A stretch of DNA of 64,000 nucleotides, from the NCBI GenBank assembly GCA_034231615.1, contig CM067306.1, positions 61,711,475 through 61,775,474 on the forward strand, written 5' to 3'. Under the pieces are notes generated by a model, which saw only the letters and a list, made by a program, of their open reading frames with translations, did no database searches and had not been told where the DNA came from. This DNA comes from Meghimatium bilineatum (Eukaryota > Mollusca > Gastropoda > Stylommatophora > Philomycidae). Made by a program: the position numbers and the translations under genes. Positions 19,994-60,067 of the stretch are shown one piece after another. The first letter of the stretch is position 1. Every line of letters starts with the position of its first letter.

Positions 19994-20208
19994 ATGATTG
20001 TTATATATATCTTCAACAGGTTGACAGTCCACATTAACATGATTGTTACATATACATTCAACAAGTTGACAGTCCACATTAACATGATTGTTACATATAC
20101 ATTCAACAAGTTGACAGTCCACATTAACATGATTGTTACATATACATTCAACAAGTTGACAGTCCACATTAACATGATTGTTACATACACCTTCAACAGG
20201 TTGACAGT
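19994..20208 (+). repeat. 45-bp array containing a catulin splice acceptor and exon start
   Basis: Five units at an exact 45-bp period. Each contains cattcaacaagttgacagt or cttcaacaggttgacagt. The last unit is the genuine acceptor, cttcaacag|GTTGACAGT, of the exon at 20200. The equivalent AG falls at 20019, 20064, 20109 and 20154. The first and last copies keep cag|G; the three middle ones read caa|G. Confidence 0.97.
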
Positions 20209-20283
20209 GCAATACAAGAAACCAAAAATTTGATGAATGTTGTAGCAAAGGTAGTCACCACATGCTTCGTCTGTGCTACAAAG
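20200..20283 (+). CDS. CTNNAL1: Alpha-catulin exon (28 codons)
   Basis: Acceptor caacag, donor AAG|gtgaac, phase 0 both ends, 84 nt. Reads VDSAIQETKNLMNVVAKVVT then TCFVCATK. Human CTNNAL1 has VDKCITKTRSMMALLVQLLS then LCYKLLKK, so V-D, I-x-x-T-x-x-x-M and the hydrophobic spacing agree. This is the last part of the protein that I can align to vertebrate catulin. Its first 9 nt and its acceptor are repeated upstream in a tandem array. Confidence 0.9.
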
Positions 20284-20319
20284 GTGAACCTCTTTGTTAG
20301 TTTGTACTTTTTAAAATGT

Positions 20320-20395
20320 TTGTTCTCAAACTTCCGCTGGGTGTCTCTTGTAGCCAGGTATCCTACTCAATTTCCAACAGAATGTGAAATGAACA
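20320..20395 (-). mobile_element. SINE S2 fragment, reverse
   Basis: ttctcaaacttccgctggg, tgtctcttgtagccagg and caatttccaacagaatgtg match reversed S2 for about 75 bp. Confidence 0.65.
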
Positions 20396-20424
20396 CAGAT
20401 ATAGAACCGTTATGCCAGAGGTTG

Positions 20425-20680
20425 TTGCTGAGATCTGAAACGGGAACAAAGAATAGTAACACTTTTTACGTTCCATGAATGTTGTAGGAGACAACTAAGA
20501 AAGTTGAGGGGTGGAGTTGACTGTGTCATCACGTATAGGGTCAAGTGAATCAGAAGTCATGATGGTGACAGATGTGTCAGGCCCAAATATTGCAGCTAAA
20601 CTGTAAACCACGGCACAACACATTCTGTTCTTTGGACTACATCCTGCTAATCTGTCAATGTTTGAGAACAGAATTTTTGT
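20425..20680 (+). mobile_element. SINE S1 copy, forward
   Basis: gaaacgggaacaaagaatag, ttccatgaatgttgtaggag, cagatgtgtcaggcccaaat, aaaccacggcacaacacatt, cctgctaatctgtcaatg. No AAG tail remains. Confidence 0.8.
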
Positions 20681-20759
20681 GTGTCAGCTAACATCCTTGA
20701 TATTATTTTTTTTTAAATAGTGTTAAATGTGTTTGTCTTGTGAACTTATTCAATAGTTA

Positions 20760-22520
20760 GTTAGTTAGTTAGTCGTCAGATCATCGTCACTGCACTCCGG
20801 ACAAGTCCATGAGTGCTTAGATCTCTCCTTGAGTGTATTCGCCATTACACGTTGACTGACAGTCCCAGTACGCCGTTGATTGATCATCATTGTTCCTCGC
20901 CCACGAAACGGCTCCATTCTAGCGACACCACATTTCAAACCAAGCTCCCATATTCTAGTCATGGAACAAGAGTCATCATCACTTCTTCTTCTTCTGCGTT
21001 TGTTCTCAAACTATTGCAGATTAGCAGGATGTAGTCCGGAGAACGGAATGCGCTGTGTCATGATTTACAGCATTGCTGCGATATCTGCGCCTTTCGGCCT
21101 GACACATCCGACTTCAGCATGGCTTTGGGTCACTGACCCTATATGAGATGCGACAGCCAACTCCATCCCATAACCTCCTTAGTCGCCTTTTACAACATGC
21201 GTGGAAGGTAAACAGTGTTGCTATTCTTTGCTCCCCTTTTGGGCCCTGGCAACACACAAGCGATCATCACTTATACAGTCATTTATTCATGTGTTTTCCC
21301 GTATGGTGTTCAAAATATCTGTCCAATCCATCACTCCATCAACAGCCGTAGTATCTGTGTGGTGCTGCCAAACTATCTGTTCTCTCATTACCCCAGACAT
21401 TACTCCCACATGTCCTGGCACAAAACTAAAAGTCACTTTACGTACACAGGAATCTTCATGACATCCAGCCACTGTTCCTGAATTTACCCTGCCTGCACTT
21501 TCACAATCATGCTTATTGAGTCACTGAGTATACAGACAATTGTTGCAGTCTGCGAGCACACCCATTTCATAGCTTTGGTTACTGCCAAAATCTCGATTGT
21601 TATGCTGCTTGTCGTCTGAGCAAACGCACCACATTCCTCTCTGATAGTCTTCCCCCACCTTTGAGCAGTGAAGGCCTAGGCACTCCTGATGTGTCTCCCA
21701 ACCGACCCATCTGTATGTATAATCATTTCACATTTCCTGGAATTCTCACCTATCAGAGTCAGAGTCATCACCTGCAACTCTACCACTGTCAGACACCATT
21801 CCCTGCATTCTGTAGTGAGTGTTATTATTAATTTGAAGGCTGTTGGATACTCTAAGGACGCTTGACTCCATTCCATTCCATTAAACACCAGGTAGCACAT
21901 CCTCCAATCTGCACAAACTTTGTATAATATCCTATGCGTGCCCCATCCATGACTTTCCTCTCTTAAGTCAACTGCCTTTCACTTTGAGAATTTCAGGATA
22001 TAGAGGGTGCTCTTTATCAGTGGTGATTTGTAGGTAGTCCCGCACCCTGCTCATTGTATTCTTTGCTCTGCAGTTGGGCAATCAAGTAAGTTTCGCATAG
22101 CCCATACCGATGTATCTCTTGTACACCCCAAAATTATTTGCATTGCCTGATTCTGGATTCTATCCAATCTTTCTGTTTGAGTCTGACTCAGTGTCAGAAT
22201 CGCTAGTGCATACTCTACCACGGCCACTACCAATCCCTCATACAGCAGAAATAGCAGCCTCTGTTCACATTGAGCAGCAGCCATAACTTTCATCACCACA
22301 AGACCTTTATAGCCTTTAAAATGATGTGGTCAACATGATCTTTGAAACTCAAGACTTCGGTTCACCATAACCCCCAAGTACTTCATTGTGCTAGTTCTCT
22401 CGTTGACATCCCCTCTCAAGGTCACTGATGGCGTGGACGTGTTTACTATGTAATTATTCAGGGAAAACCATGTTATCGATGCTTTTGATGGATTAATAAA
22501 AGCTCCCATTAATGAAGCTT
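20760..22520 (-). mobile_element. LINE L-D, 3-prime 1.7 kb, reverse, split by a SINE
   Basis: On the minus strand the order is RT C-terminal (KYLGVMVNRSLEF near 22380, then LLFLLYEGLVVAVVEYALAI at 22150-22260, a thumb-like segment), an RNase H start (IIHTDGSVG near 21715), and a C-terminal tail (MTRIWELGLKCGVARMEP) at 20765-20962. Stops and shifts interrupt it. The SINE S1 at 20985-21262 is inserted in it. The tail peptide also occurs at 42515-42700. Confidence 0.85.
20985..21262 (-). mobile_element. SINE S1, full length, reverse, with target-site duplication
   Basis: 278 bp between direct repeats atcatcactt at 20975-20984 and 21263-21272. Sequence is close to the 10998 copy (gtagtccggagaacggaatg, gcctgacacatccgacttc, gggccctggcaacacacaag). 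It sits inside LINE L-D, so it is younger than that LINE. Confidence 0.95.
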
Positions 22521-22652
22521 ATTCAATGTTAAATGTCAGCTAAAACATCCTTGATATGTCTTTTTTTAAATAGAGTCCAATATGTTTGTGTCTTGTGAAC
22601 ATATTATTCATTGTTTGCTGTCAATAATCTATTTTATCTCAATCTATTACAG

Positions 22653-22859
22653 TTCAGTATTGACTATCGCGCTTCTCCTACCCCAAGTACCAGTGGCAGC
22701 AATGGTCAAATGTGTAGATGGACGTCATGTCCCCGATATGAGTTTCGCACAAGTGGCAGTGATGCAGACTCAGGCCTAGGTCTTAGTGGACAAGGAGATG
22801 GACTGTACAGAAGTTCTAGTCTGAGCAAACCCTTGTCTCATCTAGATAAGACTGGATAA
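22653..22859 (+). CDS. CTNNAL1: Alpha-catulin terminal exon (68 codons plus stop)
   Basis: Acceptor tcaatctattacag, phase 0, ending in taa at 22857-22859. Reads FSIDYRASPTPSTSGSNGQM, then SCPRYEFRTSGSDADSGLGL and ends SHLDKTG. The segment is rich in Ser and Gly, looks disordered and does not resemble the short human C-terminus. It is assigned by position, by matching phase with the previous exon, by the long clean frame to a stop and by the lack of any later candidate. A 40-bp tandem array begins just after the stop. Confidence 0.82.
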   Translation, partial: FSIDYRASPTPSTSGSNGQMCRWTSCPRYEFRTSGSDADSGLGLSGQGDGLYRSSSLSKPLSHLDKTG

Positions 22860-22884
22860 TGTATTGGAAGGCACTAGTTGATAG

Positions 22885-24555: not shown

Positions 24556-24559
24556 GTAT

Positions 24560-32610: not shown

Positions 32611-32779
32611 TTGTCCCATCGCCTGCAACTCTCCGTGGCCCCCAGGAAGGGAGGGGAAGGCCACATAGCCCATGTTGATAACCACTGATATACTAGTTGA
32701 AAAGTGGTGCCAACAAGATAACAATACATATTTGTAGACTCTTATGATTGCATGTCTGTATACACAGTACTGGACAAGT

Positions 32780-36770: not shown

Positions 36771-36899
36771 TCAGTTAGTTTAAGTAATTGTTTAATTGAT
36801 TGATTTACCGGCACAGCAGGTTAGTTTGAGTGGCTGTTTTATTGATTGGCTTACTGAAACAGCAGATTAGTTTAAGTGGCTGTTTTATTTGTTTACCAG

Positions 36900-41312: not shown

Positions 41313-41319
41313 TTTGTTT

Positions 41320-45898: not shown

Positions 45899-46017
45899 TC
45901 ACATTTTCAGTGTTGTTCGTATTCCACTTCGTCCAGACTGTCGCCCTCTGTGTGAAATGGGTACATCATCTGTTTCAGGAAACAAGTGCAGGCCCGGAAT
46001 GTGGAAAATTGAAGTGG
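45899..46017 (-). CDS. CDK14: PFTAIRE kinase terminal exon (C-terminus and stop)
   Basis: Acceptor gtctcaacag, entering in phase 1 to complete a Thr codon, then TSIFHIPGLHLFPETDDVPI, SHRGRQSGRSGIRTTLKM and tga. Human CDK14 has MSSIFTVPNVRLQPEAGES at this point, so S-I-F-x-x-P-x-x-x-L-x-P-E agrees and the last 20 residues are lineage-specific and basic. This follows the kinase domain directly. No clear AATAAA was seen downstream on the minus strand before the R1 repeat, so the 3-prime end is undefined. Confidence 0.92.
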
Positions 46018-46079
46018 CTGTTGAGACAAATGTTATTTTATTTCTCAAATGGCGATCACAATACAAGAAAATTATTTTC

Positions 46080-46232
46080 TTCTTTAGCATTAATTCTCAC
46101 AAACTCCCGCTGGATCTCTCTTGAATCAGGACAATGGTCCTACTAGATTTCCAGCAGGATGTAGTCCCGAGAATGGAAATGCGTTGTCTCCCCGTTTTAT
46201 TTGCAGCAATGGCCCTACACATGTTTTCGGTG
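46080..46232 (-). mobile_element. SINE S2 copy, reverse, in last kinase intron
   Basis: ttctcacaaactcccgctgg, ctactagatttccagcagga, gagaatggaaatgcgttgtc, ggccctacacatgttttcgg. Confidence 0.87.
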
Positions 46233-46504
46233 GGAGCAAATGATTTATTGGCAGAAATTTTTAGAACTTCATATTGATCTAGGAGCTTGTTTCCTTAAAC
46301 CAACACAATATGGCATGTTCCTTATTCTTCTTCTTCTGCAATCAGTCACTATGCATCCAGTCCAATAATGGTCATATATAAATGTTTTAGGTCGCTGTGG
46401 GTTCCTCACAATCTAGTTTGCAGAGACGCTCCTATGGGCCAGATTGTTGTTCTGTGAGCTTCTATGTCCAGTATTTGTTTTTTAATTGCAGATCGTTTGA
46501 ACAT

Positions 46505-46660
46505 TTTACTGCCGCAGACAGATGTGTTGGGCCATTGGCACAAATAAAACAGTGACACAATGCATTTTCATTCTCTGAACTACATCATGCTAGAAATCCA
46601 GTAGGACCATTGTCCTGCTACAAGAGAGATCTAACAAGAGTTTGAGATGAACGCTGAAGA
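46505..46660 (+). mobile_element. SINE S2 copy, forward
   Basis: gcagacagatgtgttgggcc, attggcacaaataaaacagt, gctacaagagagatctaac, gatgaacgctgaagaagaa. Confidence 0.87.
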
Positions 46661-47089
46661 AGAACATTTTGACCAATCACCAATTCAGGTGTCTGGTGCA
46701 TAGGAGAGATCCAGTTCGCCAGAATCACCATATCCCGCTAGGATCACAGCATACAATTCTAGGCTAACTAACTCATCATTCTGCTATCAGATTTATGGCC
46801 CATCTGCAGCAACAGTACATCTAACATTCTCCCAACTTTACTTGGTCCTCCGTTATGACATGCCTGGAAAGAAGACAGGCCCTGAATGCCGCATGGGCAA
46901 TAGTAGAGGAATGAGGCCATCGTCATGAAATATGTGTTGAATTGCGACACTAGGAAAGTTATACCAGGTCGTACAATCTAGAAAAGTATAGGATTTCTTC
47001 CCTAATAGTCAGATGTGTGCTGCCAAAAGGAATAGACATTGCAAGCAAGCTATAAACCTAACTTAGCTGAATAGATAGGCCATGGGACA

Positions 47090-47335
47090 CACTAGGAGAG
47101 AAATTCCAAGACAACATCAATCTCCCAGGAAGGAAAGACCAGAGTATCATCTTCAGGCTTTGTACAAAATATGTAGAGCTTAGCAATTACCTAAACAGAA
47201 TACAACCACAACACACTCCAGGGTGCCGACTATGCACTAATTCCTACGAAACTGTTGACCACCACCTTGTTTGAATGTCCAGCACTGGATGGTATCAGGA
47301 AAATGCTTCTCCCTCCAAGGTCAGATAAATAGAAC
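47090..47335 (+). mobile_element. LINE tail fragment (L-B-like)
   Basis: Reads IIFRLCTKYVELSNYLNRIQ then CRLCTNSYETVDHHLV and ECPALDG after a shift. C-x-x-C…HH…CP is the post-RNase H pattern. Confidence 0.75.
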
Positions 47336-47454
47336 ACGTTATATTGAAACAAAACAACAGCTCATAAATACATGCATACATCACACGATGCCATTGGGTC
47401 AAAGGGCATGAGCCTATGGACTGCTAATTAGCCACCTATACATAAAAATACACA

Positions 47455-47585
47455 TGCTGAAATCAGATGTATCTAGCTAAAAGGAGCAGAGATTGCGGTC
47501 AAGCAATAAACCCCAACACATTGAATTCCGTTCTCCGGACTACATCCTGCTAATTTGTAGACGTTTGAGAACAAATGCAAAAGAA
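47455..47585 (+). mobile_element. SINE S1 fragment, forward
   Basis: tgctgaaatcagatgtatct, ccgttctccggactacatcc, gagaacaaatgcaaaagaag. Confidence 0.8.
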
Positions 47586-47599
47586 GAAAATACTCACCA

Positions 47600-47688
47600 A
47601 AGATGCATGTGTCTTGCCATTGACCTGCTACAAGAGAGATCCAGCAGGAGTTTGAGAATGAATGCTGAAGACGAAGAAGATCTATGAG
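47600..47688 (+). mobile_element. SINE S2, internally deleted
   Basis: aaagatgcatgtgtcttgcc, then straight to attgacctgctacaagagag, gagtttgagaatgaatgctg. About 70 bp of the middle is missing. Confidence 0.8.
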
Positions 47689-47704
47689 AGACTAATAATA
47701 TCCA

Positions 47705-47984
47705 CTCCCGTGTGTTGCCGGGCCCGAAAGAGGAGCAAAGAATAGCAACACTGTTTACCTTCCATGCATGTCATAAGAGGCGACTAAGGAGGTTATGGGA
47801 TGGAGTTTGCTGTCCCATCCCATATAGGGTCAGTGACCCACAGCCATGCTGAAGTCGGATGTGTCAGGCCGAAAGGCACTGATATCGCAGCAATGTTGTA
47901 AACCATGACACAGCGCATTCCGTTCTCCGGACTACATTCTGCTAATCTGCAGGAGTTTGAGAACGAACGCAAAGGAAGAAGAAG
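47705..47984 (+). mobile_element. SINE S1, full length, with target-site duplication
   Basis: 280 bp starting ctcccgtgtgttgccgggcc and ending gaagaag. Flanked by aataatatcca at 47694-47704 and 47985-47995. Nearly identical to 10998-11279, so probably a recent insertion. Confidence 0.96.
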
Positions 47985-48070
47985 AATAATATCCATTTCA
48001 ACCAACAGTAACAAACTGCCACATGGCAAAGCTTTTCTACAACTAAACTGTTATTTAAGTCAGAACTTAC

Positions 48071-48161
48071 TGTCAGACAACTCATGTATCCTGGGAGGCA
48101 AATCCTGAAAGTAATCATGGTGCTTGGCACTGGAGGCTGAGATTCGTTTATGTGGCTGCAT
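48071..48161 (-). CDS. CDK14: PFTAIRE kinase exon, end of kinase domain
   Basis: Acceptor cttgtactacacag, donor GACA|gtaagt; phase 0 in, phase 1 out, 91 nt. Reads MQPHKRISASSAKHHDYFQD then LPPRIHELSD. Human CDK14 has CSPKNRLSAQAALSHEYFSD then LPPRLWELTD. The arginine in KRIS is the conserved helix-I Arg of the kinase fold, and HDYF is the usual CDK end. The first residue is Met only by chance of the codon; it is not a start. Confidence 0.95.
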
Positions 48162-48734
48162 CTGTGTAGTACAAGATATTATTATTCAGGGAGGCATTCA
48201 AGACAACTAGACAAGCAAACACTCATGTATGCAAGTTGAATATAAATACAATAAGAAAATTAACAACTGATTTCTTTTTTCCCTGAATTTTTCTTATTCC
48301 TCAGAGTCATCATCATCATCATCAGGTGCCATGCCGGCTGGCATAAGCGGTCATGGCTCTCCACAGCTCTGTCTCCAGTATTATAAATCAAGATCGTTGT
48401 TGTTTCCCTGCCGTGCCAGGCTGCCAAAATGTCTAATATTTTCTCACGTTGTCGCCCTCTGTCTTTGTTGCCTTCAATCTTGCCTGTTGTGACTTGGTTC
48501 TCTAAACCTCCCTATCTCCCTATAAGTGACCATAAAATGAAGATTGTCTTTTTCTTATATTATTGATTAAGCTCTGTTTCGCATTTGACTTTTTCAACAC
48601 ATCCACATTAGTTTTTCTGGCAGTCCATGGTATTCTCAGCATTCTTCTGTAGAACTCTATTCTCTCTAATTTCCCACTTTCCAGTTTGTTCCTCTAAGAG
48701 ACAAAGCATTTAATATGACATGGTAAAGTAAGAT

Positions 48735-48895
48735 CAGTATTACAGTAAAGATCAATCTATTCAGATCTGCTAGTGCTAAGTATACTTTTATACGGATGTG
48801 AAAGCTGGACACTCAATGCAGGAAAGGAAAGAAGGATTCAGGCTTTTTAAAACAAGCACTACAGATGTTTGTTAAGAATTAGTTATATAGAACAC
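48735..48895 (+). mobile_element. LINE L-A fragment, left part of a split copy
   Basis: agatctgctagtgctaagta, ttttatacggatgtgaaag and ctggacactcaatgcagg match 5400-5470. The copy resumes at 49620 after an insertion. Confidence 0.82.
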
Positions 48896-49608
48896 TGACG
48901 TCATCACGACAATATGGCGTTGTGTTTTCTTTCTATGAAGCAGGGATATGTTATGTATTATATTCATTGAATGTGCAGTGGACAATATGTCAATGTGTCG
49001 TGATAATATCTTGAAGGTTACTTCGTTAATGGATTAAAAGATAACAACATAGTGAAGGTATTATCAAGTTTAGAAGTCTTTATGTGGATGCGTATGAAGT
49101 AAGGTTGTGACCTAGTGAAACGGTAGCGATGCATTAGCGCGAAGTTCAAACGTGATGTAGTGTCAACATCAGCAAAGTACAATGGAGATGGAGAGAGAAG
49201 ACACATCCATGTAACCACATCATAAGGACAGCTGGAGAGGAGATGGGTACCACTAGCTAAACCTTTCGCCCACTGAAATACTAGAATGGATAATCACACA
49301 CAGAGAATAAAGAACAAAGCTCTTAAACTTGCCGAAAACTGTGTTATCAGAAACTAGCATGGTTCGGACATGTATGCAGGCACAATTCCTTGTCAAAAGT
49401 CAAAAACAATACTGCAGGGAACTGTCGAGGGTGGAAGAAGCAGAGGAGGACAAATAAAGGCATGGACAGACAACATCAAGGAATGGACAGGGCAAGATAT
49501 TTCCACACTCATCCGCATCACTTAGGATAGAATTCTCTGGAGGACTGTGTGCTGAGGCATCCAATGTGGTACCCCTACGACCCTGAAGGGTTACGGTTTT
49601 ATTGATTG
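48896..49608 (+). mobile_element. Inserted LINE-derived unit with deleted interior
   Basis: 713 bp flanked by atatagaacac (48885-48895 and 49609-49619). The first about 400 bp starts tgacgtcatcacgacaatat and has no LINE protein similarity; it may be a LINE 5-prime region. The rest is an L-A-type 3-prime end (ctagcatggttcggacatgt, gtcgagggtggaagaagcag, ggcatggacagacaacatca) ending ttttattgattg. Confidence 0.85.
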
Positions 49609-49619
49609 ATATAGAACAC

Positions 49620-49948
49620 AAGACAAATATATTTGCCAGACAGCAAATAAACAAAACTTGAAGGTTATCAAGAACCACTTTTGGCATTGGTGAAACGACG
49701 TAAACTTGTTTGGTTTGGACATGTAACATGACTCGCTTTCTAAAATTACTTCACAAGAAACAGTCCAGGGTGGAAGGAGGAGAGGAGGACAGAGAAAATC
49801 CTGGATTGATAACATCAAGGAATAGTCTGGGTGTGATTATTCCACACTCCTGTGAATGGCTGAGGATATTGTTTGGAGAGCTTTCTGTACTGATGTTTCC
49901 AGTGTGACACCCTTACAACCCCAACGGGTTGTATGTCTTATTATTATA
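49620..49948 (+). mobile_element. LINE L-A fragment, right part of the split copy
   Basis: acaagacaaatatatttgcc, gtttggacatgtaacatg, gtccagggtggaaggagg, acccttacaaccccaacgg and a TTATTATTATA tail continue the fragment at 48735. Confidence 0.82.
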
Positions 49949-50061
49949 TTATATAAACATTACAAATTATAATATGTTTGTGCATCAAATGTGATAAACC
50001 CTTTGTGTGTTATGTTCATGGTAATATCGGAGACAATCTTTATTCTTGAAACACTTTATTC

Positions 50062-50216
50062 CATTGAAGACGGATGTGTCGGGCCATTGGCACAAAATAA
50101 AACGGCGACACAGCGCATTTCCATTCTCTGGACTAAATCTTGCTGGAAATCTAGTAGGACCATGGTCCTGCTGTAAGGGCGATCCAGCGGGAGTTTGAGA
50201 AGAATGCTGAAGAAGA
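50062..50216 (+). mobile_element. SINE S2 copy, forward
   Basis: gaagacggatgtgtcgggcc, acggcgacacagcgcatttc, atctagtaggaccatggtcc, gagtttgagaagaatgctga. Confidence 0.9.
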
Positions 50217-50392
50217 AACGCTATATGAGATGGAGATCTGAAGAACAAAGTTAGAACTGGCAAGATAGACAGCAAGAGAGATCAAGGATGACAACGAGGA
50301 AATAATAAGATAGTCAATATATAGAAGGATAGGGAGAACGTCATGGAAAGAGAAGGTAAAACATAAAAACTTGACATGCAAAAAAGTCTTCT

Positions 50393-50605
50393 TCTTCTTT
50401 CGTTCACTTTTGAGCTTTGTGCGTGGCATTCTGATTATCTGTGCGCCTTTTGGCTGGATGCGTCCATCTTCAGCACTCTGCTTACTTGGGCCGGACTATG
50501 ATCCTGCTCAAGTGGGACTGCCCGACTAGTCTTAGTTTCCAGCCCCTGATTGCTGAACTAAGTCCCATCACCACTTCAAGGTTCTGGCCTCCATGGGGGA
50601 AAAAA
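50393..50605 (-). mobile_element. SINE-like family S3, copy 4
   Basis: cttcttcttctttcgttcac, cgccttttggctggatgcg, ctatgatcctgctcaagtgg, tcttagtttccagcccctg, catcaccacttcaaggttc. Confidence 0.75.
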
Positions 50606-50894
50606 ATTCAACAATGACCCTGATAAAACATTCTTGAAATAGAGAATTGTAGAGATCTATGACTGCCTATGCCAATTGGCACAGAACCTTAAAATGAACA
50701 TTAAAAATGTTTGTTTTATTTTATTTTCCCCACAAAAATTCTATGTAGAATTATTGACAGTACTATTATGTTTAGGGATTGGCAATCCATTGATTGTGGA
50801 CTAAGTACTAAGATTAATATTTGAGCAATTTTTGAACGACTTAATCACAAGTATATAATATTTTATGATTATTTTTAAAAAGTCAGTAAAAGTG

Positions 50895-51178
50895 ATGGAG
50901 TATGGAGCACAGACCAGACAGACAAACTGGTTTTATGATAGAGCACATACCAGACACAAGACAGTCAAAGATACATCAGACAGACAAATTGGTTCAATGA
51001 TGGAGCACAGACCACACACAAGGCAGTCAAAGATACATCAGACAGACAAACTGGTTCAATGATGGAGCACAGACCAGAAACAAGACAGACAAACATATAT
51101 CAGACAGACAAACTGGTTCCATGATGGAGCCCACACCAGACACAAGACGATCAAACATACAACAGACAGACAAACTGA
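50895..51178. repeat. About 62-bp array, 4-5 copies, beside a kinase exon
   Basis: Unit gatggagcacagaccagaca, caagacagtcaaagatacat, cagacagacaaactggttca. It ends about 12 bp before the intron side of the exon donor at 51190-51195. Confidence 0.93.
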
Positions 51179-51195
51179 TTACAGTAATGACTTGC

Positions 51196-51293
51196 CTGCA
51201 AGAAGCACACTGCCAAATCCTCTGCATGCGGAACAAATGACAATTTAGGTACACAACATACCAGCGACTGTCGTGGATACATCTCAAGTTTTT
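51196..51293 (-). CDS. CDK14: PFTAIRE kinase exon with GC donor
   Basis: Acceptor ctgtcattctctag, entering in phase 1; 98 nt; ends TTG CAG|gcaagt. The peptide KKLEMYPRQSLVCCVPKLSF then VPHAEDLAVCFLQ matches human FTLYSSKNLRQAWNKLSYV then NHAEDLASKLLQ. The HAEDLA block is diagnostic for the PFTAIRE/PCTAIRE C-lobe. Only a GC donor joins it in frame to MQPHKRIS; the nearest GT (gtcatt) would shift the frame. cag|gcaagt is the standard context of GC-AG introns. Confidence 0.92.
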
Positions 51294-51559
51294 CTAGAGA
51301 ATGACAGAAGTAACATTTGAAAGTGCATACTGACACAAGCATCACAATCTGTCTTCATACTACAGATACAACCAGCATACAAATAATAGTAACACCTATA
51401 GTACATCAGGGTTGTAGGGGTGTCCCATCAGAGACACCAGTAAAAGCCCTCCCTCTATCCACATTCATTGAGTGTAGAAATATCATACCCGGACCATTCC
51501 ATCATTCCAAAATATTCTTTGTCACCTCTTTTTCTTGTAAGTTCCTGTCATGATCACAT

Positions 51560-51850
51560 TAAGTTGATATTAATGTTCATGTTCATGTTCACATCCTGTT
51601 CATGTTGATGTTATGTTCACATCATGTTCATGTTCATGTTATGTTCACATCCTGTTCATGTTCATGTTATGTTCATGTTATGTTTGTATTCTTTTCATGC
51701 TGATGTTATGTTTATTTTATGTTCATATTGAAAAGTTATGTCTATGTTATGTTTACATTCTATTCATGTTGATGATGTTATGTTCACATTGATGTTATGT
51801 TATTGTAATGTTACTCTCATGTCATGTTCATAATAATGTTATGTTCTGTT
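51560..51850. repeat. Degenerate atgttcatgtt repeat
   Basis: Irregular units atgttcacatcctgttcatg and ttgatgttatgttcac. Confidence 0.85.
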
Positions 51851-51984
51851 CGTGCTAAATGAACTCAACCTGTATTATCAAGTTATGTACCAGACCCATC
51901 ATTCCCTAAGAGATTTACTGAAGTGAAGAACTGAGTACCTACGGACATGTCTGGTGTGCTATGAGGGTAATCAATATATCTAAC

Positions 51985-52089
<105 letters not shown>

Positions 52090-52169
52090 ACGGTGTGGCC
52101 CTTGTTTGCTTTGTGGCGTCACCTTTCAACGTCATGGTGGAAGAGTTGTCTGGAGATTGAGATTATCTA

Positions 52170-52640
52170 ACCTAATCATGTTATATAATCAATCACATTT
52201 TGTAATATATCATTTCATGTCATCATCTGTAACTAATTATACATATATATTGACCATCCTGTGCAATGATATACAATCAATCATGTCATGTAATCGTATT
52301 ATTACTTATTCATGTTATATAATAAATAATGTAATGTAATCATATTATTTATTCATGTTATATAATAAATCATGTTCTGTAATCAATTATACCCTGTAAT
52401 CAATTACAATGTAATCAATCATGTTCTGTAGTCAGTAAATACTCTGTAATCAATCATACTCTGTAATCAATCATGTTCTGTAATCAATTATACCCTGTAA
52501 TCAATCATACCCTGTAATCTATCACACTCTGTAATCAATTATGTTCTGTAATCAATCATGTTATGTAATCAATCATGTTCTGTAATCAATCATGTTCTGT
52601 AATCAATCATGTTCTGTAATCAATCATGTTCTGTAACAAT
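52170..52640. repeat. About 17-bp degenerate array (gtaatcaatcatgttct)
   Basis: About 25 imperfect copies in which catgttctg alternates with cataccctg or catactctg. The right end stops 10-15 bp before the donor of kinase exon 52656-52813. Confidence 0.93.
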
Positions 52641-52655
52641 ATCTTAATGACTCAC

Positions 52656-52813
52656 TGAGATCATAATGAGCAAATCTAGTCACTCCTTCCCATGTGTTCT
52701 CTGTAGGTGTGCCCAATACTTTGAAGATCTGGTTCAACTGATCAAATGCATCCTTCATCCCAGGAAATGTAGCTTGACCAGAGATCATTTCAGTAAAAAT
52801 ACAGCCAACACCC
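52656..52813 (-). CDS. CDK14: PFTAIRE kinase exon, C-lobe
   Basis: Acceptor ctttgactatacag; its first G completes the Trp codon begun in the previous exon. Donor CTCA|gtgagt; 158 nt. Reads GVGCIFTEMISGQATFPGMK then DAFDQLNQIFKVLGTPTENT and WEGVTRFAHYDL. Human CDK14: GVGCIFVEMIQGVAAFPGMK, DQLERIFLVLGTPNEDTWPG. GVGCI with FPG and LGTP are CDK helix F-G markers. Upstream (higher coordinates) the acceptor plus the first 13 nt of this exon are repeated about eleven times. Confidence 0.96.
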
Positions 52814-53251
52814 CTGTATAGTCAAAGAATTCATCAAATTACAGCCAGCACCCCTGTATAGTCAAATAATGACTCACTTTACAGCCTACAACCCCTGTTT
52901 AGTCAAATAATTCATCAAATTACAGTCAGCACCCCTGTATAGTCAAATAATTCATAAAATTACAGTTAGCACCCCTATATAGTCAAATAATTCATAAAAT
53001 TAGTCAGCACCCCTGTATAGTCAAAGAATTTATCAAATTAGTCAGCACCCCTGTATAGTCAAAGAATTCATCAAATTACAGTTAGCACCCCTATATAGTC
53101 AAATAATTTATTAAATTACAGTCAGCACCCCTGTATAGTCAAAGAATTTATCAAATTAGTCAGCACCCCTGTATAGTCAAAGAATTTATCAAATTACAGT
53201 CAGCACCCCGTAGAGTCAAAGAATTCATCAAATTACAGCCAATATTCCTGT
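52801..53251 (-). repeat. 38-41-bp array of the kinase exon acceptor, 12 copies
   Basis: Plus-strand unit acagccagcacccctgtata plus gtcaaagaattcatcaaatt. On the minus strand each unit is intron end (ctttgactatacag) plus exon start (GGGTGCTGGCTGT). The genuine exon edge at 52801-52820 is the first unit. Eleven of twelve keep the AG; the copy near 53208 (ccccgtagag) has lost it. Confidence 0.97.
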
Positions 53252-53259
53252 ACAGTAAA

Positions 53260-53693
53260 ATATACATGTATGTGGCACGATAGTTTATCCGCCCACGTGG
53301 TATGTAGGCGAACTCCAGCAATGTGGTGTGGACTATATCAAGCATGGTGAGACACATAGAAAACCAGTCATCCACTGTATTGAATCTCATTTCCAGCCAT
53401 CTCGATTTGTCTCACCACTGGTTTCAAATGAGATCCAACACGAGAGTGAGTTCGACGCTTTGCACAACTCTTGCTCACTTACATCAAAATCCTCAGTGCA
53501 AGTCATTTTCACATTCACGAAAATTCACTCAAAGGGAAAAGGTTTTCCCACTGAAAACTGTCTAAGGACATTCGCGTCCTGAATAAGGCTTATTAGCCAT
53601 TTATAAAGTCATAATCAAGGACATTAACTAAATTTTTAAAAGTGGATGTAATAAATGGTCCTAATCACTTGTGATGGACGAACAACAACAACA
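53260..53693 (+). mobile_element. Insertion with (AAC)n tail and target duplication
   Basis: 434 bp ending aacaacaacaacaac, flanked by acagtaaa at 53252-53259 and 53694-53701. It splits the acceptor array. Minus-strand text atgcttgatatagtccacac resembles catgctcaatgtggtacaca near 42060, so it may be a repeat family. No clear A/B box. Confidence 0.78.
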
Positions 53694-53701
53694 ACAGTAA
53701 A

Positions 53702-53840
53702 CTAATGACTCAAAAAACAGCCAACAAACCCATATAATCAAGGAATAAATTTAACATCAAACACGCCCGTATAATCAAGAAATTAATCAATTTTCACCCA
53801 ATACTTCTGTATAATTAAGGAATTAATCAATTTACAATAA
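53702..53840 (-). repeat. Diverged continuation of the acceptor array
   Basis: Three decayed units (acagccaacaaacccatata, acatcaaacacgcccgtata, cacccaatacttctgtataa), each followed by atcaag…aattaatcaattt. They extend the 52801 array beyond the insertion. Confidence 0.85.
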
Positions 53841-54009
53841 ACATCTCAGCTAGTACCCCGACTATGAACAGGTGGCACATAAGATGTGAAAAGCAACTCT
53901 TAAGCACATTTCAGGTGGTACCCTGACTATGAACAGGTGGCAACTCTTAAGCACATAAAGCATATAACCCCTAAAATTCTCCCCCCCCCCCTATGACTAT
54001 GAGGTTTCT

Positions 54010-54262
54010 CACAGTGCTGCACACCGCTGAGAGATAAAGTCTTCTGGGTATGAAATAAAGATCTGAAGAAGCCAGACATTGCAGATAGGCTGGCCAAAGA
54101 AGGAGCTGGCCTGCTACAAGACCACTATCTGGTCAGCTAAGAGGAAATGAAGACTATCATCAAAGGCAGCTACAACAAAACATTAAAGAGATAAAGTCTA
54201 CTGGGTATGAAATAAAGATCTGGAGTAACCAATTCATCGTTAAATCTCACAGTTTCTATCGT
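54010..54262 (+). mobile_element. LINE RNase H fragment (L-B)
   Basis: Reads PDIADRLAKEGAGLLQDHYL, the last RNase H motif with its Asp. A 50-bp segment (gagataaagtcttctgggta, tgaaataaagatctgaag) is present on both sides of it, a possible duplication. Confidence 0.7.
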
Positions 54263-54457
54263 GACAGAAGGTGTTTCAAGATTGGTGTAAGTTAATAATT
54301 TACATATTTGGCTTTTTGATTGGTTTCAAGTTTCACCTGTTGAATTACAGTTTTTCTGCAAATTTTACCTATTTTCAAAATGATGAAGAGACATGCATAA
54401 TGTAGTACTTCATAAAACACAAATAACAATGGACAGTAACGTGAATAATTGACTGAC

Positions 54458-54578
54458 CACATGTCCAGTGAGGTTGAATATTCAGTGGAGCCCAAGAGGA
54501 CATCAGGTGGACGATACCACAAAGTTACCACCTCGTGGGAATATGTGTGACTAGGAATACTCTTGGCTCTAGCCAAAC
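54458..54578 (-). CDS. CDK14: PFTAIRE kinase exon, activation segment
   Basis: Acceptor gtatttgcag, donor GACATGTG|gtcagt; 121 nt. It completes the DFG glycine, then [20 protein letters not shown] and [19 protein letters not shown]. Human CDK14 is LARAKSVPSHTYSNEVVTLW then [20 protein letters not shown]: four differences in this stretch. It covers the T-loop and the YRPPD substrate-binding block. SIPSHTYS is the PFTAIRE-type loop, which distinguishes it from the [14 protein letters not shown] of CDK1/2-type loops. Confidence 0.98.
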
Positions 54579-54619
54579 CTGCAAATACAAAATTGGATAT
54601 TTTAAAAATGCATGTGTAA

Positions 54620-54775
54620 TATTATCAGATTCACGCATACAATACATGGGCACTATATCAGATTCACACATATAATACATGGGCACTATATCAGATTCAC
54701 ACATATAATACATGGGCACTATATCAGATTCACACATACAATACATGTGCACTATTATCAGATTCACACATGCAC
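54620..54775. repeat. 33-bp array, 4-5 copies
   Basis: Unit cagattcacacatataatac plus atgggcactatat. Three related units recur at 55165-55260 after a LINE scrap, so an insertion probably split it. Confidence 0.92.
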
Positions 54776-54959
54776 ATGCGGTTGTGTCTGTGGGTCTGAC
54801 CAATGGCTCACTAGACAAACAAACCATGCAACAGAAAACCTAAGTAGATGACATGCCTTTATGTTGAGGTTATCTTCTTATAGAAGCTTCATGGCATGTC
54901 ATCTATACAACCCCGCAGTCGTAACCTTCAATAAAAGTTACCATGTTGTTCCAACATGC

Positions 54960-55172
54960 CGATGTTGTGCTTGAACTAGTTACGGGCACGACATGGGTGG
55001 GCGGAACAACAAAGAAACCTGTCGCAAGGGCCAGAGTTGTGCCCTGATGTTGACATCTGTTTCAGCAACATTAGACTCGAAATACCATCGAGTCGAATGG
55101 CTGCTGGAACAGAGGGCGGAGCACTTATGGGAATGCCCCACGTGCTGTGAGGCCAGTTTCTAATCAAGAAGA
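54960..55172 (+). mobile_element. LINE fragment (L-B), inserted in the 33-bp array
   Basis: Shares ctgctggaacagagggcgga, gcacttatgggaatgcccc and tttctaatcaagaagaatc with 9190-9265. The repeat cagattcacacatacaatac resumes directly after aagaagaat. Confidence 0.72.
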
Positions 55173-55257
55173 ATCAGATTCACACATACAATACATGGGC
55201 TCTATACATGAGTACTATTAAAGATTCATATATATTATACATGGGTACTATACATGG

Positions 55258-55440
55258 GTAAGTAAAGTTAAGCCATAGCATTTATTAATGACGTAGGGGT
55301 GTGAAATGTTAGCGATCTCATTTCATTTCAGTGGCTCTACTATATGAGGGCAGTAGCTAACTCCTCTCCCTCACAGTCTTTACTACCTGGATTAATCTGA
55401 TACCCAATTATGGCTGGGTCGACCTGGGGTTCTTGATTTG
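55258..55440 (-). mobile_element. S5 element, 3-prime half, reverse
   Basis: agtaaagttaagccatagca, atgttagcgatctcatttca, actcctctccctcacagtct, tacccaattatggctgggtc. Confidence 0.82.
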
Positions 55441-55890
55441 AAAATGTTCTACCTCGACCACACAACCTCTACCTACTTGATTTGAAAACTTTCTTCCTCC
55501 ACCACACAACCTCCGTCTATATGATTTAGAAATGTTATACCTACACCACACAACCTCTACCTACTTGATTTGAAAATGTTCTACCTCTACAACACAACCT
55601 ACCAACTTCCATCTACTTGATTTGGAAATGTACGTCCAACACACAACCTCCATCTACATGATTTAGAAATGTTCTACCTCCACCACACAACCTCTACCTA
55701 CTTGATTTGAAAATGTTCTACCTCTACAACACAACCTACCAACCTCCATCTACTTGATTTAGAAATGTTCTACCACCACACAACCTTCACCTACTTGATT
55801 TATCTACCTGAACCACAGAACCTCCCATGTACCATGTTCAGAAATGTTCTATCACACAACCTTCCCTTACCATGTTCAGAATTATTCATC
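55440..55890. repeat. About 40-66-bp degenerate array
   Basis: Units ctacttgatttgaaaatgtt, ctacctctaccacacaacct and variants, about nine copies with two alternating lengths. Confidence 0.9.
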
Positions 55891-56078
55891 ACACAACCCT
55901 TACCCTACCAGGTTTATAGATCTAATTACTTATCTGTAATGAACAGATGTTATAACCAAACTATCAGAGAATACGGCAAGGTGGAGAGTGCTGCATCAAC
56001 CAAACTAAGACTTGACAACGACTATGACATGCACGATTGTGAAAGTTGCTATCATGTTATGACTTATAAAAAAATTAC

Positions 56079-56140
56079 CAAAATCTGCCAGTTTGAGCTC
56101 TCCATGTTCACTAATCAACAAGTTCTGAGGCTTGAGATCC
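56079..56140 (-). CDS. CDK14: PFTAIRE kinase exon, catalytic loop and DFG
   Basis: Acceptor tactgtcttcag, donor TTTTG|gtaatt; 62 nt. It completes Arg of HRD, then DLKPQNLLISEHGELKLADF and the first base of Gly. Catalytic Asp and Lys (DLKPQN) and the Mg-binding Asp of DFG are all present. Human: DLKPQNLLISDTGELKLADF. Confirms an active-type kinase. Confidence 0.98.
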
Positions 56141-56157
56141 CTGAAGACAGTACACAA

Positions 56158-56448
56158 ATATACTGTAATATGCAACATGAACAATGTCATGGTACTAATA
56201 ATATGCAACATGAACAATGTCATGGTTCTAGTAATATGCAACATGAACAATGTCATAGTTCTAATAATATGCAACATGAACAATGTCATGGTTCTAGTAA
56301 TATGCAACATGAACAATGTCATGGCTCTAATAATATGCAACATGAACAATGTCATGGTTCTAGTAATATGCAACATGAACAATGTCATGGTTCTAGTAAT
56401 ATGCAACATGAACAATGTCATGGTTCTAGTAATATGCAACATGAACAA
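56158..56448. repeat. 33-bp array, left block, about 9 copies
   Basis: Unit atgcaacatgaacaatgtca plus tggttctagtaat. It starts about 18 bp from the acceptor of the kinase exon at 56140. Open frames of up to 245 codons here are repeat artefacts. Confidence 0.97.
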
Positions 56449-56790
56449 ACATAAGACCAATGTGTACGTAAGAAATAAAGTAGAGATGTGTGCAGGTGTC
56501 CAGGAGCCATTGCTTTCAATAGTGAAACGATGAAAACTAGCATGGTTCGGACATGTATGCAGGCACGATTCCTTGTCAAAAACAATACTGCAGGGAACTG
56601 TCGAGGGTGGAAGAAGCAGAGGAGGGCAAATAAAGACATGGACAGACAACATCAAGGAATGGACAGGGCTAGATATTTCCACACTCATCCGCATCGCTGA
56701 GGATAGAATTCGCTGGAGGACTCTGTGTGCTGAAGCATCCAATGTGGTACTCCTACGACCCTGAAGGGTTATGGGTTTATTGATTGATTG
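56449..56790 (+). mobile_element. LINE 3-prime end inserted in the 33-bp array
   Basis: 342 bp flanked by aacatgaacaa (56438-56448 and 56791-56801), which is also array sequence. Reads FGHVCRHDSLSKTILQGTVE then GGRSRGGQIKTWTDNIKEW and ends ccctgaagggttatgggttt then attgattgattg. It is 5-prime truncated and the same family as 49380-49608. Confidence 0.93.
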
Positions 56791-57165
56791 AACATGAACA
56801 ATGTCATGTTTCTAGTAATATGCAACATGAACAATGTCATGTTTCTAGTAATATGCAACATGAACAATGTCATGTTTCTAGTAATATGCAACATGAACAA
56901 TGTCATGGTTCTAGTAATATGCAACATGAGCAATATCATGGTTCTAGTAATATGCAACATGAGCAATATCATGGTACAAGTAATATGCAATATGAACAAT
57001 GTTATGGTTCTAGTAATATGCAACATGAACAATGTCATGGTTCTAGTAATATGCAACATGAACAATGTCATGGTTCTAGTAATATACAACATGAGCAATG
57101 TCATGGTACAAGTAATATGCAATATGAACAATGTTATCTTTCTAGTAATATCACTAGCGAAAATT
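56791..57165. repeat. 33-bp array, right block, about 11 copies
   Basis: Same unit as the left block, with the first copies carrying catgtttctag instead of catggttctag and later ones gagcaatatcatgg. Confidence 0.97.
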
Positions 57166-57535
57166 GAAAACAATCAAGTTTTCTAGTTTTGCTAATCATT
57201 GGAGACACTTGAAAACACATACATATCGACATTAAAAAAAATTCTTGATCAAGTACACAACACAGCAAACAATGAGTTACGGTATGACTCTGTCAATGAT
57301 CTTATCACGATGCTAAATGATAACACAAATGTAGGAAGTTCAGAAGGACATGAACTAATATAAATAATATACAAAATTAATATAAAAACTGGAGAAACTG
57401 AGACAAAACAAAACAAATGAAAATTGACAGAACACGACAGGATATCTACATATAGGAATAACAGATGTTAACACTTAACTTTGGATGATAGAATATATCA
57501 ACTTCCAGAAGGAATATTCGTCTCAGATTTGCTTT
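57165..57535 (-). other. Kinase intron, unassigned
   Basis: No feature recognised. Confidence 0.4.
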
Positions 57536-57537
57536 GC

Positions 57538-57610
57538 TGGAGCCCGAAGGGAATGCAAAGACACTTACCTGCCATGAGAGGCAACTAAGGAGATATTTTG
57601 GGGTGGAGAG
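57538..57610 (+). mobile_element. SINE S1 fragment, 5-prime part
   Basis: tggagcccgaagggaatgca, cttacctgccatgagaggca and actaaggagatattttgggg match S1 positions 10-95. Confidence 0.7.
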
Positions 57611-57629
57611 GCCAGGATTTAACCAAAAT

Positions 57630-57885
57630 TGAAGTCAATGAACACAAAATTCAAGAATGGCAACACATCCATGTGTACATGTTGATAGGAGCCTGAGTCT
57701 ACAGAACATATATTTCGAGAATGTCCTGAATATGAGACACTGAGACAAACAGACTGACCCATATAAACAACAATAAAATCAAAGCTGTATGTACCTCTGT
57801 ATGAGACACAAAATACAGTGAAGTTTATTTGAGACAAAACTACAGATATAGATACATTTCAAGCCAATGAAAGAAGAAGAATATA
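57630..57885 (+). mobile_element. LINE tail remnant (L-B), decayed
   Basis: gcaacacatccatgtgtaca, agcctgagtctacagaacat and atatttcgagaatgtcctga read as a C…EHI..ECP tail with several stops. Confidence 0.5.
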
Positions 57886-57904
57886 ACATAAGCACATAAC
57901 AATG

Positions 57905-58040
57905 TAAATTTACTAGATTAACGGATGTATGACTGACTATATCATAAGTAATTAAAATTACTAGATTAACGGATGTATGATTAGATGTGTGACTATATCA
58001 CTAGCAATTAAAATTACTAGATTAATGGATGTATGACTAG
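57905..58040. repeat. About 58-bp repeat, 2-3 copies
   Basis: attactagattaacggatgt then atgactgactatatca, repeated with small changes. Confidence 0.88.
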
Positions 58041-58124
58041 ATCAGAGGTAGGTAGTCTTTTCAGGTTGACAGGCTAGATTGAGTTTTCTCATGTGGTAGG
58101 AGAGTAAAAAAAACTGTTTTTTAA

Positions 58125-58350
58125 TCCTTAAGATCTCCAGTCCGGCTCTGTGACGGCATGGTACAGAGTGTGTCTGTGGCGGCCAAGGTATCGGATTCGA
58201 ATCCCACCACAAGCAATTGTGCATCTGGACTGTTCAGAAAGCAATAGCAAACTACTGAACATATTTATATTGTCTAGAAAATCACTGAAGCTAACAAATA
58301 CTGGGTTGATGGCTATATCCTGAATAGGATATGCTACCAATTTTTAAAGA
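58125..58350 (+). mobile_element. tRNA-like SINE, forward
   Basis: tgtctgtggcggccaaggta (A-box region) and ggattcgaatcccacc (near-perfect B-box), then gcatctggactgttcagaaa and ggatatgctaccaattttta. The body is shared with 41640-41755. Confidence 0.82.
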
Positions 58351-58394
58351 TCTCCAGATTGTACTTTCTGGCCATTGCACACAGTACTTTTAAA

Positions 58395-58525
58395 TCTGCC
58401 CGGCGACCCAGTTAATGTGGTTTCGTAGGCCAAACAAATGTGGTTTTGCAGGTCAGTAAATGTGGTTTGGCGGGCCGTACAAATGTGGTTTGGCGACCTA
58501 GTAAATGTGGTTTGGCAGGCCAGAC
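58395..58525. repeat. About 30-bp repeat (aaatgtggtttggcgggcc)
   Basis: Five imperfect copies of gtaaatgtggtttggcaggcc. Confidence 0.9.
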
Positions 58526-58635
58526 TTTGCCCGCAGGCTGTATTATGCCTATCCCTGGATTAGATGAACAGATGTGTGATCAGATGAAAGCATGCATGCA
58601 TGGATGAAAAATGCAATTAAAACTACGTAACTGAC

Positions 58636-58697
58636 CTGTGTAAAATACGACGCTGATGGCAGTATGCAAGACCTCGAAGCAATTGATACAGGAACAT
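58636..58697 (-). CDS. CDK14: PFTAIRE kinase exon, helix E to HR
   Basis: Acceptor gttctcactag, donor CACAG|gtcagt; phase 0 in, phase 2 out, 62 nt. Reads MFLYQLLRGLAYCHQRRILH then the split Arg. Human: LFLFQLLRGLSYIHQRYILHR. The split HR|D codon is completed by the 56079-56140 exon. Confidence 0.96.
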
Positions 58698-58827
58698 CTA
58701 GTGAGAACATGACAAATGTTGAACAATTTCAGTCACATAGTAATGTCAGATAAGTCAGCAACAAGTCAAAAATACAGCAACTGTGTTCAATGGAAAGTGA
58801 TGACTGTTCAAGAAGAACAATATGTTA

Positions 58828-59092
58828 AAGTCTTCTTCTTCTGCGTTTGTTCTCAAACTCCTGTAGATTAGCAGGATTAGTGTCACGGTTTACAGCACTG
58901 CTGCGATATCTGTGCCTTTCAGCCAACACATCCAGCTTTAGCATGGCTTTTGGTCACTTTAACCCTATATGAAACGGAACAGCCAACTCCACCCCATAAT
59001 ATCATTAGTCAACTCTTACGACATGCATGGAAGGTAAGCAGTGTTGCTATTCTTTGCTCCCCTTTCGGGCCCTAGCGACAAACATAGGGAAT
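58828..59092 (-). mobile_element. SINE S1 copy, reverse
   Basis: cttcttcttctgcgtttgtt, ctcctgtagattagcaggat, gtttacagcactgctgcgat, ctccccataatatcattagt, ctttcgggccctagcgac. Confidence 0.88.
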
Positions 59093-59109
59093 TATTTTCA
59101 AATGAGAGG

Positions 59110-59330
59110 ATGATTATGTTCAAAAGAGATAGGTGTGTACTCAAGTGGATGACTATTTTATAAAGATAAAATGTGTACAGAGTGAGGGATGTACTCAAGT
59201 GGATGACTGTTTTGTAAGGGTAAAATATGTACAAGGTGAGGTGATTACTCAAGTGGATGACTGTTTTGAAAGGGTAAAATATGTACAGGGTGAGGTGATT
59301 ACTCAAGTGGATGACTGTTTTTTAAGAGAA
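59110..59330. repeat. About 54-bp array, 4 copies
   Basis: Unit actcaagtggatgactgttt, tgaaagggtaaaatatgtac, aaggtgaggtgatt. Confidence 0.93.
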
Positions 59331-59370
59331 AAACATACATATTCAAGATGAGAAGTAAGAGAAGGGCTAT

Positions 59371-59680
59371 CTCAAATGCAAACATCTTACCTTGACAACA
59401 AATGCAAACATCTTACCTTGACATCAAATGCAAACATCTTACCTTGACATCAAATGCAAACATCTTACCTTGACATCAAATGCAAACATCTTACATTGAC
59501 ATCAAATGAAAACATCTTACTTTGACATCAAATGCAAACATCTTACCTTGACATCAAATGCAAACATCTTACCTTGACATCAAATGCAAACATCTTACCT
59601 GGACATCAAATGCAAAAATCTTACCTGGACATCAAATGCAAACATCTTACCTGGACATCAAATGCAAACATCTTACCTTG
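59371..59680 (-). repeat. 26-bp array of the kinase exon donor, 12 copies
   Basis: catcttac occurs at 59383 and every 26 bp to 59669. On the minus strand each unit is TGTCAAG|gtaagatg then tttgcatttga. The unit nearest 59677 is the genuine exon end (AATGTCAAG|gtaagat). gtaagat is kept in all twelve; the exon-side base varies (CAAG, CCAG, CAAT, CAAA). Confidence 0.98.
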
Positions 59681-59739
59681 ACATTAAAAGTATTCAGCCC
59701 TCCCGGATGTTTCTCCAGGTACTGACTCAAGTCTGTGTG
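59677..59739 (-). CDS. CDK14: PFTAIRE kinase exon (21 codons)
   Basis: Acceptor ctttcatccacag, donor GTCAAG|gtaaga, phase 0 both ends, 63 nt. Reads HTDLSQYLEKHPGGLNTFNV then K. Human CDK14: HTDLCQYMDKHPGGLHPDNV. The HPGGL insert is characteristic of the PFTAIRE/PCTAIRE kinases. Its donor is the seed of the 26-bp array downstream. Confidence 0.97.
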
Positions 59740-59835
59740 CTGTGGATGAAAGGTCAAACACAAAAGTAAAATTTTACAAATTGTTTAGTAGACAATATCA
59801 GTGTATACATTTTCACATTGTACACATCTTTACAT

Positions 59836-59990
59836 ACTCAAAGACAACACACCATCAACATACAATGCATAATTATGAACTGGACTGTGTCTAAAACTGA
59901 CCACATATTCAAAGACAACACACCATCAACATACAATATACAATTATGAACTGGACTGTGACTAAAACTGACCACATATTCAAAGACGAA
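59836..59990 (-). repeat. 72-bp duplication of a kinase exon end and donor
   Basis: ctgaccacatattcaaagac occurs at 59968-59987 (genuine exon end and donor) and 72 bp lower, with a third, partial unit at 59836. On the minus strand both intact copies read GTCTTTGAATATGTG|gtcagt. The third has lost the donor (gtatgtaaag). Confidence 0.95.
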
Positions 59991-60067
59991 AGTAAGAGTT
60001 TCTTTGGTGTGCACAATGTCATGAAGGGTCACAATGTTTGCATGACGCAGGCCTTTGAGAAGTGATG
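59973..60067 (-). CDS. CDK14: PFTAIRE kinase exon, helix C to hinge
   Basis: Acceptor tttcctcccaacag, donor TATGTG|gtcagt; 95 nt, phase 1 in, phase 0 out. It completes Ala, then [20 protein letters not shown] and [11 protein letters not shown]. Human: SLLKGLKHANIVLLHDIIHT then KETLTLVFEYV. FEYV is the hinge. Confidence 0.97.

Follow-up and report, generated by a model that had tools for sequence, protein, structure and literature searches.

Minisatellite arrays across exon-intron boundaries in two genes of Meghimatium bilineatum and their resemblance to lancelet mirages

Mirages were reportedly treated in a 2002 paper on lancelet Adh. They are minisatellite-like tandem duplications across an exon-intron boundary, and the parts of two reports considered here place them in the lancelet genes Adh3, globins BflGb6 and BflGb9, troponin C and PGBD5 (the last two from PMC3902484), the unit length being 10-72 bp for Adh3 and 60-160 bp for PGBD5 and the globins (PMC3087553, PMC3902484). 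Related systems are a minisatellite of human IFI6 that supplies splice donor sites (PMC4526556) and a model in which introns are gained when AGGT segments undergo tandem genomic duplication (PMC3443670). Minisatellites have also been treated in connection with splicing in C. elegans (PMC4039745), and a paper on earthworm metallothionein describes intronic minisatellites, none of which spans a junction in the parts examined (PMC12783039). Here we analyzed 64,000 nucleotides of the gastropod Meghimatium bilineatum (assembly GCA_034231615.1, contig CM067306.1, positions 61,711,475 to 61,775,474), hereafter the window, which contains two convergent animal-type genes, an alpha-catulin-like gene on the forward strand and a CDK14-like kinase gene on the reverse strand. 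Four minisatellites in these genes include an exon edge together with its splice signal.

Four arrays that include an exon edge

Fifteen coding exons were mapped, five in the catulin-like gene and ten in the kinase gene, in place of the sixteen counted in an earlier reading of this DNA from its letters alone (the sequence-only reading), and they define 28 splice junctions. Apart from one GC donor, at kinase exon H (CAG/GCAAGT at 51196, the slash marking the splice site), every mapped intron begins with GT and ends with AG, and the spliced reading frames of both genes are open when the exon-proximal sites are used. Two acceptors (20200 and 52813) and two donors (59677 and 59973) lie inside exon-edge arrays, the remaining 24 junctions having none. 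In all four arrays the splice signal and the exon edge are tandemly copied, in 2.2 to 12 copies of units of 26-71 bp (Table 1). The array intrudes into the exon by less than one unit everywhere, namely by 9 of 45 bp at catulin exon cat4 and by 25 of 40, 12 of 26 and 15 of 71 bp at kinase exons G, C and B respectively. The cat4 unit reads CAG/GTTGACAG, and in three of its copies CAAG replaces CAGG, with loss of the CAG acceptor.

The four arrays had been reported by the sequence-only reading and were recovered at the same coordinates by Tandem Repeats Finder (TRF). A test independent of TRF, in which a query of 20+20 bp across each junction was compared with the adjacent intron and with 200 shuffles per junction, returned the same four. 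Duplicate scores were 44 for cat4 (shuffle maximum 26), 57 for G (25), 59 for C (29) and 65 for B (26), and the other 24 junctions scored 12-23, within their own shuffle ranges.

As in the lancelet genes, tandem copies of a donor or an acceptor span the boundary with the splice signal, and the authentic junction is kept at the gene-proximal edge, as shown by the open spliced frame. The four arrays fit the structural definition of a mirage, and in the two genes together they affect four of the 28 junctions. The comparison differs in kind of evidence, since splicing fidelity and length instability were reported for the lancelet arrays, whereas the present ones are known from the sequence of one haplotype.

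Table 1. Genes, exons and arrays of the window (positions counted from its first letter)
Feature	Positions	Strand	Details
Alpha-catulin-like gene, 3' part	1415..22859	+	exons 1415-1600, 15827-16087 (cat2), 18247-18369, 20200-20283 (cat4), 22653-22859 (stop)
CDK14/PFTAIRE-like kinase gene	45899..63561	-	exons 63561-63390 (A), 60067-59973 (B), 59739-59677 (C), 58697-58636, 56140-56079 (E), 54578-54458 (F), 52813-52656 (G), 51293-51196 (H, GC donor), 48161-48071, last exon below
Kinase last exon	46017 to stop ending at 45899	-
Catulin exon cat4	20200..20283	+	starts VDSAIQETKNLMN; edge 20200; alpha-catenin alignment at same place: VDSA, KNLMN
Kinase exon G	52656..52813	-	GVGCIFTEMI...; acceptor edge 52813; GVGCIF identical in CDK16
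Kinase exon C	59677..59739	-	HTDLSQYLEKHPGGLNTFNVK; donor edge 59677; NVK also present in CDK16
Kinase exon B	59973..60067	-	ends VFEYV; donor edge 59973; CDK16 counterpart VFEYL
cat4 acceptor minisatellite	19992..20208	+	45-bp unit, 4.8 copies; acceptor and 8-9 bp of exon cat4
Exon G acceptor minisatellite	52789..53238	-	~40-bp unit, ~11 copies; acceptor and ~14 bp of exon G; TATACAG/GGGTG
Degenerate exon G unit copies	53702..53836	-	past ~460 bp of unrelated sequence; nhmmer best E 0.0016, weaker 0.22 and 5.1
Exon C donor minisatellite	59372..59688	-	26-bp unit, 12 copies; donor TGTCAAG/GTAAGA and 7-12 bp of exon C
Exon B donor minisatellite	59832..59987	-	71-bp unit, 2.2 copies; donor TATGTG/GTCAGT and ~15 bp of exon B
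Doubtful fifth case	62992..63235	-	155 bp downstream of exon A donor (63390); unit and exon end both have CCATCAGAG
Array unrelated to exon edge	50915..51177		19 bp from exon H donor (51196)
Array unrelated to exon edge	52266..52640		16 bp from exon G donor (52656)
Array unrelated to exon edge	56165..57151		25 bp from exon E acceptor (56140)
Array unrelated to exon edge	63592..63837		31 bp from exon A acceptor (63561)
Array unrelated to exon edge	54623..54771		45 bp from exon F acceptor (54578)

Origin of the arrays and fate of the duplicated splice sites

Profiles of the units of the four arrays matched solely their own locus within the window at E < 0.01. The arrays are four separate births, that of exon G being old enough for decayed copies, which lie in the same intron about 570-1000 bp from the exon. 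The splice signal present in all four units, all of them at junctions, could recall copies of a single mobile or introner-like element carrying splice sites. Such an element would be seen at several loci, but no unit profile matched another locus in the window at this threshold and every unit includes the exon edge next to which it lies, which makes a mobile origin extremely improbable. The sequence common to exon edge and array might also be read in the opposite direction, with exon edges captured from pre-existing intronic arrays; the edges, however, encode residues conserved in paralogues, namely VDSA in alpha-catenin, NVK and GVGCIF in CDK16 and VFEYV against VFEYL in CDK16, and we find edge capture hardly credible. 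Since these exon-edge residues match paralogues, the arrays derive from the exons. With four separate arrays, locus-specific units and edges that pre-date the arrays, the recurrent birth of minisatellites from exon edges put forward by the sequence-only reading held up.

An odd copy of the exon G array (52854-52893) and a decayed copy (53702-53726) carry GAGTCATTA, as does the exon G donor at 52656; these copies are perhaps the exon start fused with a donor, or a product of chance.

The additional sites within the arrays were scored as decoys with a simple matrix, 26 in total: 11 at exon C, one at B, ten at G (one without AG) and four at cat4. Fifteen equal or exceed the authentic site and 11 score lower; nine of those at exon C equal or exceed the real donor. 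Any of the 26, if used, would introduce a stop codon upstream of the regular end of the joined exons, the last kinase exon being left out of this check, and splicing would therefore have to rely on the copy nearest the exon. The earlier expectation that such arrays supply ready-made splice sites and exon variants finds no support in this result.

The high scores of those 15 decoys might still suggest that the extra sites are useful, as alternative exon ends or in the tuning of splicing, and are kept by selection. The part of the IFI6 report considered here describes a comparable arrangement, with repeat units bearing extra donors at an exon end, and states that downstream units act as donors for three alternative mRNAs (PMC4526556), whereas the present decoys are all stop-introducing. 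The CAG acceptor lost in three catulin copies also argues against usefulness, and lancelet mirages were reported, in the portions of the papers considered, without apparent disturbance of regular splicing (PMC3087553, PMC3902484). A selected role of the extra sites seems highly unlikely to us. The model of intron gain, as far as the part consulted describes it, shares with the present case a local tandem duplication that yields additional splice sites; there an exonic segment is duplicated and a new intron results, whereas here existing junctions were duplicated into existing introns and no new intron was seen (PMC3443670).

The reading we consider probable is an ordinary minisatellite birth of the mirage type, tolerated at exon edges since an intact junction remains. 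A short segment that by chance lay across the border of an exon and an intron would have undergone tandem duplication, as such segments do throughout this repeat-rich genome, presumably by slippage or repair, and would then have been expanded and homogenised in minisatellite fashion. The copy touching the exon would preserve the frame and the splice site, so that the array would be tolerated, while the remaining copies would stay in the intron as decoys. Purifying selection would keep the exons themselves free of arrays. The arrays would be neutral, and the exon-proximal site would be used faithfully, presumably via exon definition.

Placement of the arrays relative to the exons

The array set consisted of merged TRF rows with a period of at least 10, shorter periods being left out, and all placement figures refer to a single window chosen after the pattern was seen, hence post hoc. 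The 55 merged arrays comprise 13,406 bases, 21% of the window. They cover 22% of sampled non-exonic points and 3.2% of the 1902 exonic bases, the latter being just the four edge overlaps (61 bases). Under circular shift, with each round discarding any array moved beyond the end of the window, a mean of 5.8 junctions was covered against the four observed (P = 0.81), and a junction hotspot by coverage was rejected. Grouped by distance from a junction, cover was 17% (1-25 bp), 29-33% (26-100 bp), 39% (101-200 bp), 33% (201-300 bp) and 25% (301-400 bp), and beyond that it stayed at 16-22% out to 1000 bp. There is a near-exon excess of arrays over a few hundred bases, and the low value next to the junction, compared with that at 101-200 bp, indicates that it has no junction peak.

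Two causes had been offered by the sequence-only reading, a process that starts tandem duplication at or near exon edges and selection by which arrays persist where splicing is not broken. The second is the better fit. The first, a mutational process favoring tandem duplication near exon edges, for instance through co-transcriptional R-loop trouble in replication or repair or through splice-signal motifs, is at odds with a cover that, in the first 25 bp, does not exceed that of distant sequence and peaks 100-200 bp away. Moreover, the edges of dispersed repeats are spanned as well. These were taken from a self-comparison of the 64 kb window, an incomplete map from which intervals of ~60 bases or less were unused, and gave 69 control intervals. 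By the rule that an array extends at most one unit past the edge, seven of the 138 control edges were spanned, compared with four of the 28 junctions (Fisher P = 0.09); leaving out two intervals, which represent part of exon cat2 and the copy of that part, the count was 7/134 (P = 0.10). Spliced (exon-exon) units, suggested earlier as a sign of R-loop or spliced-RNA involvement, were absent, on inspection by eye, from the units of the four arrays. Since arrays span dispersed-repeat edges, and since one array lies in what we take to be a retroelement open reading frame (ORF) remnant, births are not limited to exon edges.

Several counts nevertheless weigh against ordinary birth and tolerance as a complete account, and some of them also favor an exon-edge process. 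The one-unit rule gave four spanning arrays against 0.82 by circular shift (P = 0.011), against 0.98 by constrained placement (P = 0.013; in a second run 1.00, P = 0.019), and against means of 1.07-1.58 in four runs that did or did not stratify by block and avoid dispersed repeats (P = 0.026-0.051), the avoiding runs using 67 of the 69 control intervals; the expectation overall is 0.8-1.6. A half-unit rule gave three arrays in merged coordinates against 0.49 (P 0.012), or four when the limits of the exon G array are taken from the 40-bp TRF row (P 0.0017). Junctions spanned by an array or with one at most 50 bp off numbered 9/28 against 2.5-3.7 expected (P = 0.001-0.006) and 18/138 control edges (Fisher P = 0.02; 18/134 and P = 0.02 without the two intervals), and at 26-300 bp from exons the cover, 29-39%, stands above background. 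The kinase region alone gave three arrays by the one-unit rule against 1.00 expected (P = 0.07), and arrays lying outside the exon but within 50 bp numbered five against 1.2-2.1 (P = 0.008-0.053).

Because the one-unit, half-unit and 50-bp counts and the near-exon cover all exceed expectation, neutral placement alone may not be the whole story; part of the near-exon excess could be due to a transposon-poor exon-proximal intron. A departure from random placement was thus found in one respect and not in the other, the one-unit rule nominally exceeding chance (P 0.011-0.051) and junction coverage falling below it. The excess is small, and, given a single window, a post hoc choice and weak P values, we regard a special process at exon edges as unlikely. 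Birth without such a process, followed by tolerance, remains our preferred explanation. A broader version, in which this lineage has a bias of tandem duplication toward near-exon intron, the junction included, and mirages recur at a large fraction of exon edges, is in our view doubtful.

Other features of the window and biological meaning

Arrays unrelated to the exon edges also lie close to other splice sites, as noticed earlier, four of them at 16-31 bp from the donors of G and H and the acceptors of E and A. These four and the array near the exon F acceptor were examined as possible decayed mirages, and none of the five resembles its exon edge. A fifth array (given earlier as 62990-63238) had been suggested to include an exon edge; a weak likeness to the exon A donor was indeed found (P = 0.013), but the array lies off the junction, and its score ranked sixth of 27 array-junction comparisons and was equalled by an implausible one, so that the case is unconvincing.

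The statement that arrays elsewhere show no splice-like motif did not survive scoring. Three intergenic arrays hold donor-like motifs as strong as those of real junctions, with matrix scores of 11.9 (32777-33015), 8.8 (36774-36889) and 9.2 (41164-41316), the 13 real donors scoring 3.7-10.3. A process driven by splice-signal motifs might draw some support from them. The motifs may mark where non-coding exons end or begin, or may have arisen by chance. A further protein-coding gene behind them was considered and rejected, as the six frames of 22900-46800 gave no Pfam match above the curated cut-off and four weak matches, all below it.

The spliced catulin product matched the Vinculin family at 2.2e-30 and the solved structure of catenin alpha-1 at 2.1e-27, and a search of NCBIfam with the catulin piece returned no family. 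There may be an extra short catulin exon between 1415-1600 and 15827-16087. The nearest solved relative of the kinase is CDK16 (3.7e-117), and the kinase would fit CDK14. A stretch of 64 bp from the interior of exon cat2 (15861-15924) recurs at 17401-17464, within the intron that follows and some 1.5 kb further downstream, with 60/64 positions identical and a stop codon in the exon's frame; it is a recent, non-tandem duplication of an exon fragment.

The 33-bp array at 56165-57151 is interrupted by ~340 bp (56449-56790), which include a piece that we take to be the 3' end of a non-long-terminal-repeat retroelement (its ORF reads ...WFGHVCRHDSLSKTILQGTVEGG...), and the retroelement seems to have landed within the array. 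An array with a 51-bp unit at 13553-13672 sits in the presumed retroelement ORF remnant mentioned above and suggests array birth in coding-like sequence outside exons. A perfect ATCT microsatellite of 25.5 copies occupies 51988-52089. A family resembling short interspersed nuclear elements (SINEs), with TTCTCAAACTCCTGCAGATTAGCAG near one end, is found at 20961-21270 and about 15 further places, and a SINE-like fragment (19907-19991) adjoins the catulin junction array. Scans for the SINE pattern among genome contigs and among viral contigs returned nothing, and an Rfam search likewise gave no match.

Four clear cases among 28 junctions provide a worked example of splice-site duplication, in which the spliceosome would have to ignore nine decoys at exon C that are strong by the simple matrix. 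For the present, the finding mainly extends the lancelet mirages, already in print, to two more genes in a minisatellite-rich genome, and it looks likelier to be a by-product of a repeat-crowded genome than proof of a special process at exon edges. Beside the known mirage type, the near-exon bias is a modest question. If the near-exon excess were genome-wide, it would link minisatellite birth to gene structure and intron gain, and such a bias, if true, would keep this lineage provided with duplicated splice sites from which new introns or exon ends could arise.

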